Translations under genes and position numbers: made by a program
Part shown: positions 24,762-31,985 of the stretch, in pieces
Position numbering within the stretch: position 1 is the first letter of the stretch
Layout of the letters: every line of letters begins with the position of its first letter
Notes under the pieces: generated by a model
The model's input: the letters and a program-made list of their open reading frames with translations, nothing else
What the model was told of the DNA's origin: nothing
Database searches by the model: none
From: Pararoseomonas sp. SCSIO 73927
Lineage (GTDB): Bacteria > Pseudomonadota > Alphaproteobacteria > Acetobacterales > Acetobacteraceae
Length of the DNA: 64,000 nt
NCBI RefSeq assembly: GCF_037040815.1
Contig: NZ_CP146232.1
Coordinates: 3,283,501-3,347,500 of the forward strand
Direction: 5' to 3'

Positions 24762-27077
24762 ATGCGCGCCTTCCAGAACCTTTCCGTTGCCCGGAAGCTC
24801 GGCGCAGCCGCCGGGCTCACACTCTGCCTTCTCGGGGGCCTTGTCGGCCTCGTCTGGTCCGAGCTGCAGGACGTCTCGCAGCAGCAGGAGCGGCTGCGCG
24901 TGGCGGCGCGCGTGCAGGCCGTGATGGAGCAAGCGGCCGGCCGGGCCGCCCAGGCGCCGGTGCAGGAGGCGCAGCTGGGCAACGCCCAGGACCTGCCCGC
25001 TGCCCGGGCCGCCGCCGCGGAAGCTGGCACCGCCCTCGGCGCCGCGCGGAAGCTGGTGGAGGAGGCCGCGGCCGAGATCACCCTTCCCGCCGCGCGGGAG
25101 GCCGCGCTGGCCGCCCTGCCCGAGACGCGCCGCTACGAGGCCGCCATTGGCCACATGCTCGAGGCCCGCGCCCGCATGATCGAGGCGCGGGACGACCGGC
25201 TCTACCGCCTGACCGCCGAGTTCGACCAGGGGATGGAGGCGGTGCTCGGCGCCCTGGAGTTCGAGGTGCCCGACCGTTCCCAGGTGGACGAGGTGCGGGG
25301 CCGCGTGATGGCCTTCGGCAACGCGGTGAACGAGGCGCGGCTGGCGATCCAGCGCTTCCTCGTCACCGGGGAGGACGGGCAGGCCCGCCGCGTGCGGCGC
25401 GCGATCGCGCAGCAGCGCGTCCACCTGCGGGGCGTGCAGTCCTACGCCGTGACGGCGCGGCTGAAGGACGACGTGGCCCGGATCGGCACCGTGGCCGCCG
25501 GCCTGGCCGAGGGCTGCGAGACGATCCTCACCTCCCTGGCGGAGGTGGCGAAGGTCCAGGCCGAGGAGACCGGGCCCGCCGCCGCCGCGCTGCGCCAGAG
25601 GCTGGGCGAGGCCACGGGCCTGCTGCAGGAGGATGCCGCGGGGCGCAGCGCGGAGATGGCGTCCGGGCTGGGGAGCGTGGTGGGCTTCACCCTCTGGATC
25701 GGCGCCGCCGTGGCGCTGATCCAGCTCCTCTCCTCCTGGGCCGCCAGCCGGGCCATCGGCGGGCCGCTGCGCCGCGCGGCGGTGCGGGTGCGCGCCATCG
25801 CTTCCGGCGACACCAGCCCGGGCGGAGCCGACGAGACGCGGGACCGCGAGGGGCGCGACGAAACGGGCCGCATCGCCGCCGCGCTGGAGGAGCTGCGCGG
25901 CACGGTGGGCCGCGCCTTCGCCCAGGCCCAGATGATCGAGCAGATGCCGCTGGGCCTGATGGCCGCCGATCCCGCGCTGCGCGTGACCCACGCCAATGCG
26001 GAGATGGCCGAGGTGCTGTCCCGCCTGGGCGTGACGGAGCCGGTGGTCGGCCGCGCGCTGGAGGAGCTGCCGCTGGAGGGGATGGCCGGGCTGCGCGCCA
26101 CCCTGGCGGACCCCGCCGCCCTGCCGCACCGCGCCCGGCTGCGCGTGGGGGAGGAGATGGTGGACCTGCAGGCCAGCGCCATTACCGACGGCACGGGCGC
26201 CTATGCCGGCCCGATGCTGACCTGGCGCCTGGTGACGGAGGAGGCCCGCCTGGCCGACACCTTCGAGGCCGAGGTGGGCGGCGTGGTCGAGGCCTTGGCC
26301 GGGGAGGTGGAATCGCTCCGCCGCGCCGCCGGCGGCGTGCACGACACCGCCGGGCGGTCCGGCCGGGAGGCCGCGCAGGTGGCCGACGCCGCCGCCCGGG
26401 CGAGCGGCGAGGTGGGCGCCGTGGCCGCCGCGGCCGAGGAGATGGCCGCGAGCATCACCGAGATCACCCGCCGCGTGGCCGAGGCCGCCGAGGTGGCCGC
26501 CCAGGCCGTCTCCGAGGCCCGCGCCACGGATAGCACGGTGCGCGGGCTGGCCGAGGGCGCCGCGCGGATCGGCGATGTGGTCCGCCTGATCGGCGACATC
26601 GCCGGGCAGACAAACCTGCTGGCGCTGAACGCCACCATCGAGGCGGCCCGCGCCGGCGAGGCGGGGCGCGGCTTCGCCGTGGTGGCGAGCGAGGTGAAGA
26701 CCCTGGCCGCCCAGACCGCGAAGGCGACGGAGGAGATCTCCAGCCAGATCCAGCAGATGCAGGCGGCGACCACCGGGGCGGTGGAGGCGATCCGCGGCAT
26801 CGGGGAGACGGTGGAGCGCACCAGCGGCATCGCGACCGCCATCGCCGCCGCAGTGGAGGAGCAGGGCGCGACCACGCGGGAGATTGCCCGCAGCGCCGCC
26901 CAGGTGGCCGGGGGCACGGACACGGTGAACCAGGCCATCGCGGGCGTCCGCGCCGCGGCGGAGGAGACGGGGAGTGCTGCCGGCGGCATGCTCTCCGCCA
27001 CCGAGGCGCTGGCGGGGCAGACGGCCATCCTGCGGGAGAAGTCCTCGGGCTTCCTTCGGGCGGTGCGCGCCGCCTGA
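24762..27077 (+). CDS. Methyl-accepting chemotaxis protein with internal PAS domain
   Basis: A 771-residue chemoreceptor. Order: membrane helix 1 (about 13-31), a long helical periplasmic sensor region (35-300) without cysteines, helix 2 (306-328), a HAMP-like linker ([21 protein letters not shown]) and a PAS-like domain (about 388-490, beginning [19 protein letters not shown]). Last comes the signalling coiled coil with the hairpin tip [20 protein letters not shown] near residue 612. There is no C-terminal CheR/CheB pentapeptide. GAGGAG precedes the ATG. No che genes are nearby, so it is an orphan receptor; the ligand is unknown. Confidence 0.94.
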
Positions 27078-27167: not shown

Positions 27168-28172
27168 ATGGCTCATCGGATCGCGGTCACCGGCGCCACC
27201 GGGCAGGTGGGGCGGGAGATCATCAAGACGCTCGCGGAGCGGGAATTCCCTGTGGCCTCCATGGCCGCCCTCGGTTCGGGGCGCTCGGTCGGCGGCTCGC
27301 TCTCCTTCGGGGAACGGGACGTGAAGGTGGAGGCGGTGGAGCGGCACGACTGGGCCGGGACCGACCTTCTCTTCCTGGCACCGGGCACGGTCGGGCCCGT
27401 GACCCTGGCTCGCAAGGCGGCGGCGGCCGGCTGCGCCGTGGTGGATGCCAGCGGCTTCGCCAACCCCGACGCGCCGGTGATGGTGCCTGAGGTGAACCCG
27501 GGCGTGCTGGCGGCCGATCCCCGGATCGTCGCCTCCCCTGTGGCGGGCGCCATTCTGCTGGCGATGGTGCTGCACCCCCTTCAATCCCTGGCCGGGCTGG
27601 TGCGGGTGTCCGTCACCTCCCTCCAGCCCGTCTCGGGGGCGGGGCGTGAGGCGATGGATGAGTTGTTCAGCCAGACCCGCGGCGTCTTCGTGAATGATCC
27701 CTCGGTGCCGGAGCAGTTCCCCAAGCCCATCGCCTTCAACCTCATCCCCCAGGTCGGCGCCTTCGGCGAGGGCGGGCTGACGGATGAGGAGGAGGCGATC
27801 GCGGAGGATGCCGGGCGCCTGCTGGGCGGCGTACCGGTGGCCGCCACCTGCGTTCGGGTGCCGGTCTTCATCGGGCAGTGCCTGACGATCCAGGCGACCT
27901 TCGACCGGCCGGTGGATGAGGCGGAGGCGCGGGAGGCGATCCGCGGCGCGCCCGGCCTGACCCTGCTCGATCGGCGGGACGATGGCGGTTACGTCACCCC
28001 GCTGGACACGGTGGGGGAGGACCCGATCTTTGTCTCCCGCATCCGGCCCGATGCGACGGTGCCCAATGGACTCGCCCTGTGGTGCGCGGGGGACAATCTG
28101 CGCAAGGGCGGCGCCCTGAACGCGGTTCAGATCGCTGAGGAGTTGTTGCGGCGCGGCGCCCTACGGGGTTGA
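27168..28172 (+). CDS. Aspartate-semialdehyde dehydrogenase paralogue lacking catalytic residues
   Basis: 334 residues, full length for Asd, with the N-terminal NADP motif ITVTGATGQVGREI-like (AVTGATGQVGREIIKTLAER) and the family blocks VPEVNPG, QPVSGAGREAMDELFSQTR and the C-terminal DNLRKGGALNAVQIAEELL. The active site is gone. Where active enzymes read NPNCS this reads SPVAG (Ala126 replaces the nucleophilic Cys). The conserved GH of the second active-site segment is GQ (Gln237), and the phosphate-binding Arg after the NSSxxR segment is lost (DASGFANPDAP). It resembles the USG-1 class of non-enzymatic Asd homologues. It is intact and lies 151 nt before sdhC. Real Asd must be elsewhere. Function unknown. 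Confidence 0.9.
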   Translation: MAHRIAVTGATGQVGREIIKTLAEREFPVASMAALGSGRSVGGSLSFGERDVKVEAVERHDWAGTDLLFLAPGTVGPVTLARKAAAAGCAVVDASGFANPDAPVMVPEVNPGVLAADPRIVASPVAGAILLAMVLHPLQSLAGLVRVSVTSLQPVSGAGREAMDELFSQTRGVFVNDPSVPEQFPKPIAFNLIPQVGAFGEGGLTDEEEAIAEDAGRLLGGVPVAATCVRVPVFIGQCLTIQATFDRPVDEAEAREAIRGAPGLTLLDRRDDGGYVTPLDTVGEDPIFVSRIRPDATVPNGLALWCAGDNLRKGGALNAVQIAEELLRRGALRG

Positions 28173-28324: not shown

Positions 28325-28774
28325 ATGGCCCATAACCCCGACGCGCGCGAAGCCCTCATGATCGGCACCCGCACGGACGGCACCACCGTCCGCCGGCCGC
28401 TCTCCCCGCATCTGCAGGTCTACGACATGCTGCAGATGTCCAGCGCCACCTCCATCTCCCACCGCATCACCGGCAGCGCCTGGTCGGTGGGGCTGGTCTT
28501 CTTCGTGTGGTGGATCCTCGCCCTGGCGGCGGGGCCGGAATCCTACGCGCGGGCCCAGTGGTTCTTCGGCAGCTTCGTCGGCGTGATCGTGCTCCTCGGG
28601 CTCACTGCCACCGTCTGGTACCACACGCTGAACGGCGTGCGGCACCTCGTCTGGGATGCGGGCTACGGCTACGACATCCCGACCACCTACCGCACGGGCT
28701 GGGCCGTGATCATCGGCACCGGGGTGATGACGGTCCTGACCTGGATCGTCGGCATCATCGCCTGGGCTTCGTGA
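28325..28774 (+). CDS. sdhC: Succinate dehydrogenase cytochrome b556 subunit
   Basis: Membrane anchor of complex II, binding heme b and ubiquinone. 149 residues with three helices (about 58-77, 84-104, 122-146). RPLSPHLQVYDMLQMSSATS leads into SISHRITG, the SdhC signature. A His in WYHTLNGVRHLVWD is the expected heme ligand. It starts 13 nt before sdhD. Confidence 0.95.
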   Translation: MAHNPDAREALMIGTRTDGTTVRRPLSPHLQVYDMLQMSSATSISHRITGSAWSVGLVFFVWWILALAAGPESYARAQWFFGSFVGVIVLLGLTATVWYHTLNGVRHLVWDAGYGYDIPTTYRTGWAVIIGTGVMTVLTWIVGIIAWAS

Positions 28775-28787
28775 GAGGAGCGCGCCG

Positions 28788-29195
28788 ATGAGCGAGCACA
28801 TCCCGGCGGCGAACCGCCAGACCAGCATGCAGACCGGGCTCGGCCGCGTGCGCGGCTCGGGTTCCGCCCGGAACGGCACCCACCACTGGTGGATGCAGCG
28901 CGTCACCTCCGTCGCGCTGCTGCCGCTGACGCTCTGGTTCGTCTTCGGCATCGCGATCCACGCTGGCGCCCCCTGGGAGGTGATGGCGGAGTGGGTCGGG
29001 CGGCCCTTCAACGCCGTGCTGATGATCCTGCTGATCGGGATCACCTTCCACCACACGGAGGCCGGGCTGCAGGTGGTGATCGAGGACTACATCCGCCCCG
29101 AGCGCCGCGCGATGGTGGCGGGGCTGGTCATCAAGGGGATCTGCCTCGTCCTCGGCCTCCTCTCCGCGCTGGCCGTCGTCAGGCTGGCGGTCTGA
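28788..29195 (+). CDS. sdhD: Succinate dehydrogenase hydrophobic anchor subunit
   Basis: Second membrane anchor of complex II; 135 residues, three helices. [20 protein letters not shown] is the usual N-terminal segment of alphaproteobacterial Sdh[17 protein letters not shown] holds the conserved His and the quinone-site Asp-Tyr. A GAGAGGAG Shine-Dalgarno precedes the ATG. A 166-nt spacer with a hairpin separates it from sdhA. Confidence 0.95.
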
Positions 29196-29248
29196 TGCGC
29201 CCGGCGCGGCAAGACCTTCCGGGCCGCGCGGGGACCTCCCATATGTTC

Positions 29249-29270
29249 GCCGGGCGTTCGCGCGCCCGGC
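29249..29270 (+). other. Stem-loop between sdhD and sdhA
   Basis: GCCGGGCG pairs perfectly with CGCCCGGC around a TTCGCG loop, inside an unusually long 166-nt spacer in the sdh operon. No U-tract follows. It may set mRNA stability or differential expression of the membrane and catalytic subunits. Confidence 0.4.
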
Positions 29271-29361
29271 CGTCGCGCCTTCCCGGGCGCAAGTGCTTCA
29301 GCGCCCGCCAGGGTGCCACGACATGCGCCGCGACCGGCGCCAGGACGTACGAGAACCCGCA

Positions 29362-31188
29362 ATGAACGCCATCAGCCAGCCTCCGCGCCCCGGCCTCAAC
29401 GGCGGCGCCTATCGGATCGTGGACCACACCTATGACGTGGTGGTGGTGGGGGCCGGCGGCGCCGGCCTTCGCGCCACCTTCGGCATGGGCGCGGCGGGGC
29501 TGAAAACGGCCTGCATCACGAAGGTCTTCCCCACCCGCTCCCACACGGTCGCCGCCCAGGGCGGCGTCGGCGCCTCCCTCGGCAACATGGGCGAGGATGA
29601 CTGGCGCTGGCACATGTACGACACGGTGAAGGGCTCCGACTGGCTCGGGGACCAGGACGCCATCGAGTACATGTGCCGGGAGGCCGTGCCGGCGATTATC
29701 GAGCTGGAGCACTACGGCGTGCCCTTCTCCCGCACGGAGGACGGCAAGATCTACCAGCGGCCCTTCGGCGGTCACATGCAGAACTACGGCAAGACGCCGG
29801 CCATGCGCGCCTGCGCCGCGGCCGACCGCACGGGCCACGCGATCCTGCACACGCTCTACCAGCAGAGCCTGAAGCATAACTGCGAGTTCTTCGTCGAGTA
29901 CATCGCCCTCGACCTCATCATGGACGAGGACGGCGCCTGCCGCGGCGTGATGGCCTGGAACCTCGAGGACGGGTCCATCCACCGCTTCCGGGCCCAGACC
30001 ACGGTGATGGCGACCGGCGGCTACGGCCGCGCCTACTTCTCCTGCACCTCCGCCCACACCTGCACCGGCGATGGCGGCGGCATGGTGCTGCGCGCCGGCC
30101 TGCCCCTGCAGGACAACGAGTTCGTGCAGTTCCACCCCACGGGCATCTACGGCTCCGGCTGCCTCGTCACCGAGGGCGCGCGCGGCGAGGGCGGCTACCT
30201 GACGAACTCGGAGGGTGAGCGCTTCATGGAGCGCTACGCCCCGACAGCGAAGGACCTCGCCTCCCGCGACGTGGTGTCCCGCGCCATGTCGATGGAGATC
30301 CGCGAGGGCCGCGGCGTGGGCGAGCACAAGGACCACATCCACCTGCACCTGGAGCACCTGGGCGCGGAGCTGCTGCACGAGCGCCTGCCCGGCATCTCCG
30401 AGACGGCGAAGATCTTCGCCGGCGTGGACGTGACGAAGGAGCCGATCCCGATGCTCCCGACCGTCCACTACAATATGGGCGGCATCCCCACGAACATCCA
30501 CTGCGAGGTGCTGCGCCCCACCGCGACGGACCAGGACGCGACGGTCCCCGGCCTGATGGCGGTGGGCGAGGCGGCCTGCGTCTCGGTCCACGGCGCCAAC
30601 CGCCTCGGCACCAACTCGCTGCTCGACCTCGTCGTGTTCGGCCGCGCCGCCGCGCACCGCGCGAAGGAGACGATCCGCCCCGGCGCCGTGCAGGCGCCGC
30701 TGCCGGAGGGCGCGGGCGAGAACGCGCTCGCCCGGCTGGATCGCGTCCGCTACGCGAAGGGCGACACCTCGGTCTCCGAGCTGCGGGTGAACATGCAGCG
30801 CACCATGCAGAACCACGCCGCGGTGTTCCGCACCTCCGACCTCCTGAAGGAGGGCGTGGAGAAGATGGCGAAGGTGGCCGATGGTTACAGCGACATCCAC
30901 ATCAAGGACCGCAGCCTGATCTGGAACAGCGACCTCGTCGAGGCGATGGAGCTGGACAACCTCATCGGCAACGCCCTGACCACCGTGGTCGGCGCCGAGG
31001 CCCGGCACGAGTCCCGCGGCGCCCACGCGCACGAGGACTACCCCGACCGCGACGACCAGAACTGGATGAAGCACACGCTGGCCTGGGTGAACGACCAGTA
31101 CCGCGTGAAGCTCGACTACCGGGACGTGAAGATGCGGACCCTCACCAACGAGGTCCAGGTCTTCCCGCCCAAGGCACGCGTCTACTAG
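29362..31188 (+). CDS. sdhA: Succinate dehydrogenase flavoprotein subunit
   Basis: Catalytic subunit that oxidises succinate to fumarate with covalent FAD. 608 residues. FAD dinucleotide motif [17 protein letters not shown] (residues 26-42); the FAD-linking His61 lies in [14 protein letters not shown]; the active-site segment [20 protein letters not shown] carries the catalytic Arg region. The start at 29362 is chosen because homologues begin MNA-like; an in-frame extension upstream lies in the structured spacer. Confidence 0.97.
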
Positions 31189-31202
31189 GAAGCCCCGGAA
31201 CC

Positions 31203-31985
31203 ATGGCGACCTTCACCCTCCCGAAGAACAGCACGGTCCAGCCCGGCCAGACCTACAAGGCCGAGGCCGGGGCGAAGAACGTGCGCTCCTTCAAGATCTA
31301 CCGCTGGGACCCGGACACGGGCGAGAACCCGCGGATGGACACCTACGAGATCGATCTCGACAAGTGCGGCCCGATGGTTCTGGACGCGCTGATCAAGATC
31401 AAGAACGAGGTGGATACCAGCCTCACCTTCCGGCGCTCCTGCCGCGAGGGCATCTGCGGCTCCTGCTCGATGAACATCGACGGGCTGAACACCCTGGCTT
31501 GCCTCAAGCCGATCGAGGACGTGCAGGGCGACGTGCGGATCAACCCGCTGCCGCACATGCCCGTGGTGAAGGACCTGGTTCCGGACCTGAGCCAGCTCTA
31601 CGCGCAGCTCCGCTCGATCGAGCCCTGGCTGAAGGCCGACACGGCCGCCCCGCCGGACGAGGAGCGCCGCCAGTCCAAGGAGGAGCGCGCGAAGCTCGAC
31701 GGACTGTGGGAGTGCATCCTGTGCTTCTGCTGCTCCACGGCCTGCCCCTCCTATTGGTGGAACGGCGACCGCTATCTCGGCCCGGCCGTGCTGCTCCAGG
31801 CCTATCGCTGGATTGCCGACAGCCGCGACGAGTACCAGGGCGACCGCCTGGACCAGCTCCAGGACCCGTTCCGGCTCTATCGCTGCCACACGATCATGAA
31901 CTGCGCCCGGACCTGCCCGAAGGGGCTGAACCCGGCCGCGGCCATCGGCGAGATCAAGACCCTGCTGGTCGAGCGCGATCGCTGA
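31203..31985 (+). CDS. sdhB: Succinate dehydrogenase iron-sulfur subunit
   Basis: Carries electrons from FAD to quinone through three clusters. 260 residues. The [2Fe-2S] ligands are Cys80, Cys85, Cys88 and Cys100 ([12 protein letters not shown]). The [4Fe-4S] and [3Fe-4S] clusters use [12 protein letters not shown] and the later [17 protein letters not shown]. It follows sdhA by 14 nt, with GGAAGCCCCGGAACC before the ATG. The next gene begins 2 nt after its stop. Confidence 0.97.

Follow-up and report, generated by a model that had tools for sequence, protein, structure and literature searches.

The window, a stretch of 64 000 nucleotides of Pararoseomonas sp. SCSIO 73927, carries at positions 27168..28172 of the forward strand an open reading frame with an ATG start, a TGA stop and no internal stop codons. 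Its product, a protein of 334 amino acids, contains both Pfam domains of aspartate-semialdehyde dehydrogenase (Asd, an enzyme on the route to lysine and threonine), PF01118 and PF02774; we describe it as a pseudo-Asd, that is, the resident Asd of this locus without its catalytic residues. On the same strand the gene is preceded by a gene for a methyl-accepting chemotaxis protein (mcp, 24762..27077, Pfam PF00015) and followed by sdhCDAB (28325..31985, reading frames named by eye). Synteny identifies mcp as the upstream neighbour in the ancestral gene order and sdhCDAB as neighbours inherited together with the locus.

Residues were assigned by alignment of the window protein to working alphaproteobacterial Asds. 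SPVA stands at the position of the NPNC motif: the nucleophilic Cys is replaced by Ala126 (codon 27543..27545, forward strand, as are all codons given here) and the Asn before it by Val125 (27540..27542). A deletion of two residues at Phe97-Ala98 (27456..27461) has taken out the phosphate-binding Arg, Ala210 (27795..27797) replaces the phosphate-binding Lys, and Gln237 (27876..27878) stands for the active-site His, the base. The alignment thus agrees with a preliminary description, made from the letters of the window, of an intact Asd homologue with Cys changed to Ala126, His to Gln237 and Arg lost. The further statement there that the whole active site is replaced holds for Cys, His, Arg and Lys and goes too far for the rest: the substrate-binding Glu207 (27786..27788), the carboxylate-binding Arg230 (27855..27857), Gln153 and the SGAG loop are all kept. 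Kept as well is Arg39 (27282..27284), which we take to be the Arg that binds the 2′-phosphate of NADP. We matched the window positions to Haemophilus influenzae numbering and assigned the residue roles ourselves; by this matching Glu207 presumably corresponds to E243 and Arg230 to R270. Crystal structures of mutants of the H. influenzae enzyme, according to the titles of the structure entries, cover R103, C136, E243, K246, R270 and H277.

The window protein passes the equivalog cut-off of NF011456 (329.4 bits against 223) and misses the cut-offs of TIGR01296 (asd_B; 289.9 against 324.2), NF005957 (202.4 against 273) and NF004224 (251.6 against 284). An AlphaFold2 model, computed from an alignment full of working Asds, has a pLDDT of 88 and TM scores of 0.89-0.92 to the best Asd structures; the Asd fold is thus predicted to be retained.

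The genus of the window is represented in our collection by 15 genomes. Using 'dead' for a resident Asd that has lost the nucleophilic Cys, we found that 11 of the 15 carry a dead resident, 77-100% identical to the window protein and with an open frame, while the residents of the other four are intact and 54-55% identical to it. Across the 11 dead proteins Cys has become Ala in eight and Ser in three, Arg is deleted in all, Lys is Ala in all, and His is Gln in 10, with one protein retaining His. The Ala and Gln substitutions looked for as a trait of a clade are therefore such a trait, and as the loss is shared with open frames by 11 of 11 species it is attributable neither to chance nor to sequencing error. 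The dead members are filed as Roseomonas rosea, pecuniae, aerilata, nepalensis, harenae and populi, with two Roseomonas strains, Pararoseomonas baculiformis and Pararoseomonas indoligenes also in the clade; the genus Pararoseomonas was proposed in PMC8414978.

Selection was estimated with our own pairwise GY94 script, which is approximate at 75% GC. The dN/dS values in the dead clade of the window (0.037-0.066, nine pairs) lie inside the range of working residents (0.014-0.068 over 22 pairs, with subsets of three, four and 15 pairs giving 0.039-0.044, 0.014-0.068 and 0.027-0.062); pairs involving the dead protein L063 were excluded from that range. Other dead lineages, described below, gave 0.017-0.156 (18 pairs, in some of which dS was saturated), and in each of them ω = 1 was rejected, with 2ΔlnL of 85-279. 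Judged from its sequence, then, the window gene is a pseudoenzyme that has lost its catalytic residues and is under strong purifying selection.

The preliminary description had proposed looking in the genome for a second asd with an intact NPNCS motif, and one was found: a gene at G000:C1:525631-526614, whose product is 36% identical to the window protein and belongs to the same superfamily but, in contrast to it, has an intact active site. A PF02774 search of the window genome found no third Asd. The closest solved sequence is the Asd of Thermus thermophilus (2yv3, 394 bits), and we call this Thermus-like second Asd the T-type. Its dN/dS is 0.042-0.096 (six pairs). At six of 10 T-type loci (L352, L354, L361, L364, L367 and L370) we observed genes similar to those for class I lysyl-tRNA synthetase and lysylphosphatidylglycerol synthase beside the asd gene (at 6998-8005 in L352); the neighbours were named by Pfam at L354 alone and by homology at the other loci. 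Homologues of these two neighbours were not found at the T-type loci of G242, G355, G337 and G466, and this neighbourhood, present at six of 10 loci only, explains little. In the three genomes of genus g60 with a dead copy (L355/L356, G242) the T-type gene lies ∼12 kb from the dead resident.

To see how far the loss extends we drew on a collection of 299 Acetobacteraceae genomes, 11 of them without any Asd match. The survey comprised 172 genomes: 82 of the 84 with two matches, seven further members of the window's genus and 83 of the 204 with one match; two two-match and 121 one-match genomes lie outside it. The Cys is kept in 142 of the residents and missing in 30, which fall into six genera: g1 (11 of 15), g111 (6 of 6), g31 (5 of 6), g118 (3 of 6), g60 (3 of 6) and g44 (2 of 3). 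Plastoroseomonas arctica and Neoroseomonas lacus (L063, outside the 172) are examples of dead residents beyond the genus of the window. The replacement of Cys varies (Ala in 11, Ser in eight, Pro in seven, Gly in three, Asp in one), and His, where lost, becomes Gln, Glu, Asp, Leu, Asn or Thr depending on the lineage.

Each of the 30 dead residents has a T-type Asd in its genome, which shares 71-100% identity with the T-type of the window genome. Among the 49 genomes with this background 30 residents are dead and 19 intact, against none dead and 40 intact where the second Asd is of another kind (∼50% identical to the T-type, a few being just fragments); Fisher's test of T-type against other second Asd among two-match genomes gives P = 6e-11, a value computed on tips that are not independent. 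None of the 83 one-match Acetobacteraceae genomes has a dead resident. Because the genomes are related, tests of this kind count more independent cases than there are.

Beyond this family, a search of 115 genomes spread evenly over the class found T-type Asds, at 65-70% identity, in three further families, and dead residents in T-type genomes of all three. One of these, f51 (hereafter the second family), makes up all 69 genomes of its order; at the 61 loci fetched, with eight one-Asd genomes left out, the resident was dead in 24 of 43 T-type genomes and in none of the 18 non-T-type genomes. Both T-type genomes from outside Acetobacteraceae and the second family have dead residents. A resident match was present in all 95 T-type genomes seen, and in the two families it is intact in 38 of 92. 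The aligned part of the gene contains no stop codon in any of the 30 dead residents of Acetobacteraceae or the 24 of the second family. In L289 (G339), a dead resident of a further T-type genome, the frame is broken near the 3′-end in a draft assembly, so that dead residents may in some cases decay. The clearest case of a genome with no resident match is the 98% complete G088 (L133) of Acetobacteraceae, whose sole Asd is of the M-type. The repeated occurrence of the same loss beside a T-type Asd suggests, at the level of sequence, a second job of the protein; from G088, which seems to have lost the resident, such a role would not be universal.

The surroundings of the gene were compared with 22 other alphaproteobacterial asd loci, fetched with flanks of up to 5 kb that were often cut short by contig ends. 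We observed sdhC downstream of asd in nine of them and mcp upstream in six. In intact members of the window's own genus sdhC lies 0.7 kb (G003) and 0.9 kb (G013) from asd, the G013 locus also carrying mcp, and all three kinds of gene occur together in G315, where Asd is intact, and in G180 and G044, where it is dead. The distance between asd and sdh reaches 4.7 kb in relatives; in the window clade the intervening genes are gone and asd directly precedes sdhC. In two relatives the separating genes (membrane transport, by eye) included nothing relevant, and in the stretches fetched from G242, G337 and G057, all with dead residents, neither mcp nor sdh was present. Since working Asds of several related genera share the mcp/sdhCDAB surroundings, the gene owes its position to an ancestor with catalytic activity. 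We have therefore dropped the functional link to sdh that had been proposed from the window: the gene order predates the loss and is also seen with working Asd. As far as sequence comparison goes, synteny supports orthology of the window gene to the resident Asds, and the locus offers no hint about function.

The number of losses depends on the tree. In the Acetobacteraceae tree with catalytic sites masked, the dead label requires five changes, and in the free tree the dead sets with long branches, from g1, g60, g111 and in part g118, fall together. Trees that keep dead and intact members of a genus together have higher likelihoods (+24 lnL for g1, +12 for g60 and +39 for g118; p-AU 0.74, 0.61 and 0.85). 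We set aside a single ancient dead clade, a grouping that is not needed given the higher scores of the genus-wise trees of g1, g60 and g118, though it is not proven wrong. On our own reading the data fit six independent losses (free tree) to 10 (by genus), a number that is not firm. In the tree of the second family the dead label requires seven changes, three of them forced by well-supported branches.

Four proteins of the second family (L305, L316, L321 and L324) appear to be at an early stage: NPNCS has become NPNGA while Arg, Lys, His, Glu and Gln are intact, and close relatives hold intact copies. The shared NPNGA may reflect a single event spread by recombination, or convergence. The reverse case, a resident that keeps Cys and lacks Arg, Lys, His, Glu or Gln, was not seen except in the draft frame L131; among the 142 intact residents the departures are L131 itself (an odd draft frame with a gap at Arg) and L018 (first Asn of NPNC changed to Val), and two are partial. 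The simplest reading of the four early-stage genes and the absence of reverse cases is that the nucleophile was probably lost first, an order that would resemble silencing rather than random decay.

We then considered what the dead proteins have in common. There are 141 positions conserved in at least 98% of the 142 intact residents, and 40 of these are unchanged in every member of ten dead lineages; equal sites and independent lineages would give 6.3, and unequal constraint among sites, as in any folded protein, accounts for part of the surplus. These core sites are distributed in the window protein over the catalytic/dimer domain (26), the Rossmann part (eight) and the C-terminal helix (six). 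Losses are most frequent at the nucleophile and adjacent sites, N95, S72, K211, K215, R100 and H243 (numbering of the reference L013). Among dead proteins of the second family, eight that played no part in defining the core retain 36-40 of its 40 sites, and the strongly diverged dead protein L290 retains 27. Arg230 is present in all 30 dead Acetobacteraceae proteins. For NADP(H) sensing, a role suggested in the preliminary description, the sites give a mixed picture: Arg39 is likewise present in all 30, while Gly12 of the Rossmann motif is altered in 11 of them; position 39 is variable in the second family, working enzymes included. Within the window clade the dead proteins L009 (G011), L011 (G001) and L010 (G009) have also lost a glycine of GxxGxxG, and NADP binding may accordingly differ among its members.

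The nearest known parallel is USG-1 of gammaproteobacteria, a likeness already pointed out in the preliminary description, and we find the comparison apt. Usg of Escherichia coli (b2319) and its Pseudomonas aeruginosa homologue (2hjs) share with the window protein an Asd fold that is without the Cys and otherwise kept. E. coli Usg retains 27 of the 40 core sites and five of the 24 sites of the lost type, of which the intact T-type Asd retains 16; by this count the sites missing from Usg are largely those missing from the dead residents. There are clear differences as well. The window protein derives from the alphaproteobacterial Asd at its own locus, unlike Usg, which in E. coli adjoins pdxB and truA rather than mcp and sdhCDAB; E. 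coli Usg scores 683 bits against NF005957, whose cut-off the window protein does not reach; and Usg keeps His and has Arg at the Lys position, where the window protein has Gln237 and Ala210. Gammaproteobacterial USG-1 presumably stands beside an Asd of a type different from the T-type. The resident Asds of Roseomonas, Neoroseomonas and relatives (asd_B, TIGR01296) share with the window protein the fold and, where it is visible, the locus; the intact ones are at most 56% identical to it and keep the Cys, His, Arg, Lys and Asn that it lacks. Asd II of Vibrio cholerae (2qz9, 2r00) differs from it in having NPNC intact. In the part of PMC6358828 that concerns usg the gene is annotated as a putative Asd, with no function given there, and literature searches restricted to open-licence PMC papers returned no paper on dead resident Asds.

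We consider it highly probable that the window gene is a selected, non-catalytic pseudoenzyme left behind by displacement. The resident Asd, inherited vertically, would have handed its catalytic job to the T-type enzyme, which would now carry the flux; it would then have been silenced, probably at the nucleophile first and at the other catalytic residues afterwards, and purifying selection would keep it as a non-catalytic protein that is presumably still made. What remains would be a second, non-catalytic function of a folded and probably dimeric Asd. The idea of selection for another role, advanced earlier from the window, is in this respect well supported by the open frame, the predicted fold, the low dN/dS, the second intact Asd and the clade-wide substitutions. 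Speaking against this picture are the broken frame of L289, the strong divergence of L290, the apparent loss of the resident from G088 and the 38 of 92 T-type genomes in the two families whose resident has stayed intact.

As to what that function is, we prefer, tentatively and at a little short of an even chance, a moonlighting or regulatory function already present in the working ancestor. We lean slightly this way given the many T-type genomes with both enzymes intact and the different Asd type that, as we take it, accompanies USG-1; the latter would also make a partner specific to the T-type unnecessary. Such a partner is a possibility we regard as doubtful: the pseudo-Asd would form mixed oligomers with the T-type Asd, in a structural or regulatory capacity, and the T-type enzyme would depend on it. 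The restriction of dead residents in our surveys to T-type genomes favours this role, as do the presence of a resident gene in every T-type genome seen, the location of most core residues in the catalytic/dimer domain and the lack of a resident match in G088, where an M-type Asd is alone; on the other hand, T-type and resident are only ∼36% identical, and the core sites would equally fit plain folding and homodimerization. A more general form of either idea seems to us rather unlikely: the T-type, through a partner role or a hidden second job of the resident, would impose a fixed fate in which the resident is silenced nucleophile-first and held as an obligate pseudo-subunit, and in gammaproteobacteria this rule would have led to USG-1.

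Other readings carry less weight. That the protein has become an enzyme of another kind, acting on a related substrate, is improbable; Glu207, Arg230, Gln153 and Arg39 do remain, Arg230 without exception in the dead Acetobacteraceae proteins, but it is Gln in the dead proteins L290 and L295 and in E. coli Usg, and the replacements of Cys and His, varying by lineage, form no common new catalytic set. That the gene is redundant and decaying slowly, its deletion yet to come, we judge more improbable still: the broken frame of L289 and the lineage-specific losses, as expected under drift, have to be set against dN/dS in the dead clade like that of working Asds, the rejection of ω = 1 in the other dead lineages and the absence of stops from the aligned part of all 54 dead genes in the two families. 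Least credible of all is an Asd still at work by an unusual mechanism, for although the protein passes the NF011456 cut-off and its substrate site is partly kept, it has lost the nucleophile, the base and the two phosphate ligands, and the genome encodes an intact Asd.

The NF011456 equivalog cut-off was passed by all five dead residents that were run (the window protein, L046, L052, L063 and L068). Automatic annotation is thus likely to name such proteins working Asds, by which metabolic models would be misled. With the displacement of the resident by the T-type enzyme as the preferred reading, one odd gene becomes a natural experiment repeated several times, in which a housekeeping enzyme would have been displaced and its catalysis lost again and again while the protein was kept. 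The repetition reveals which residues are kept, and the function of proteins of the USG-1 type becomes testable in free-living bacteria.
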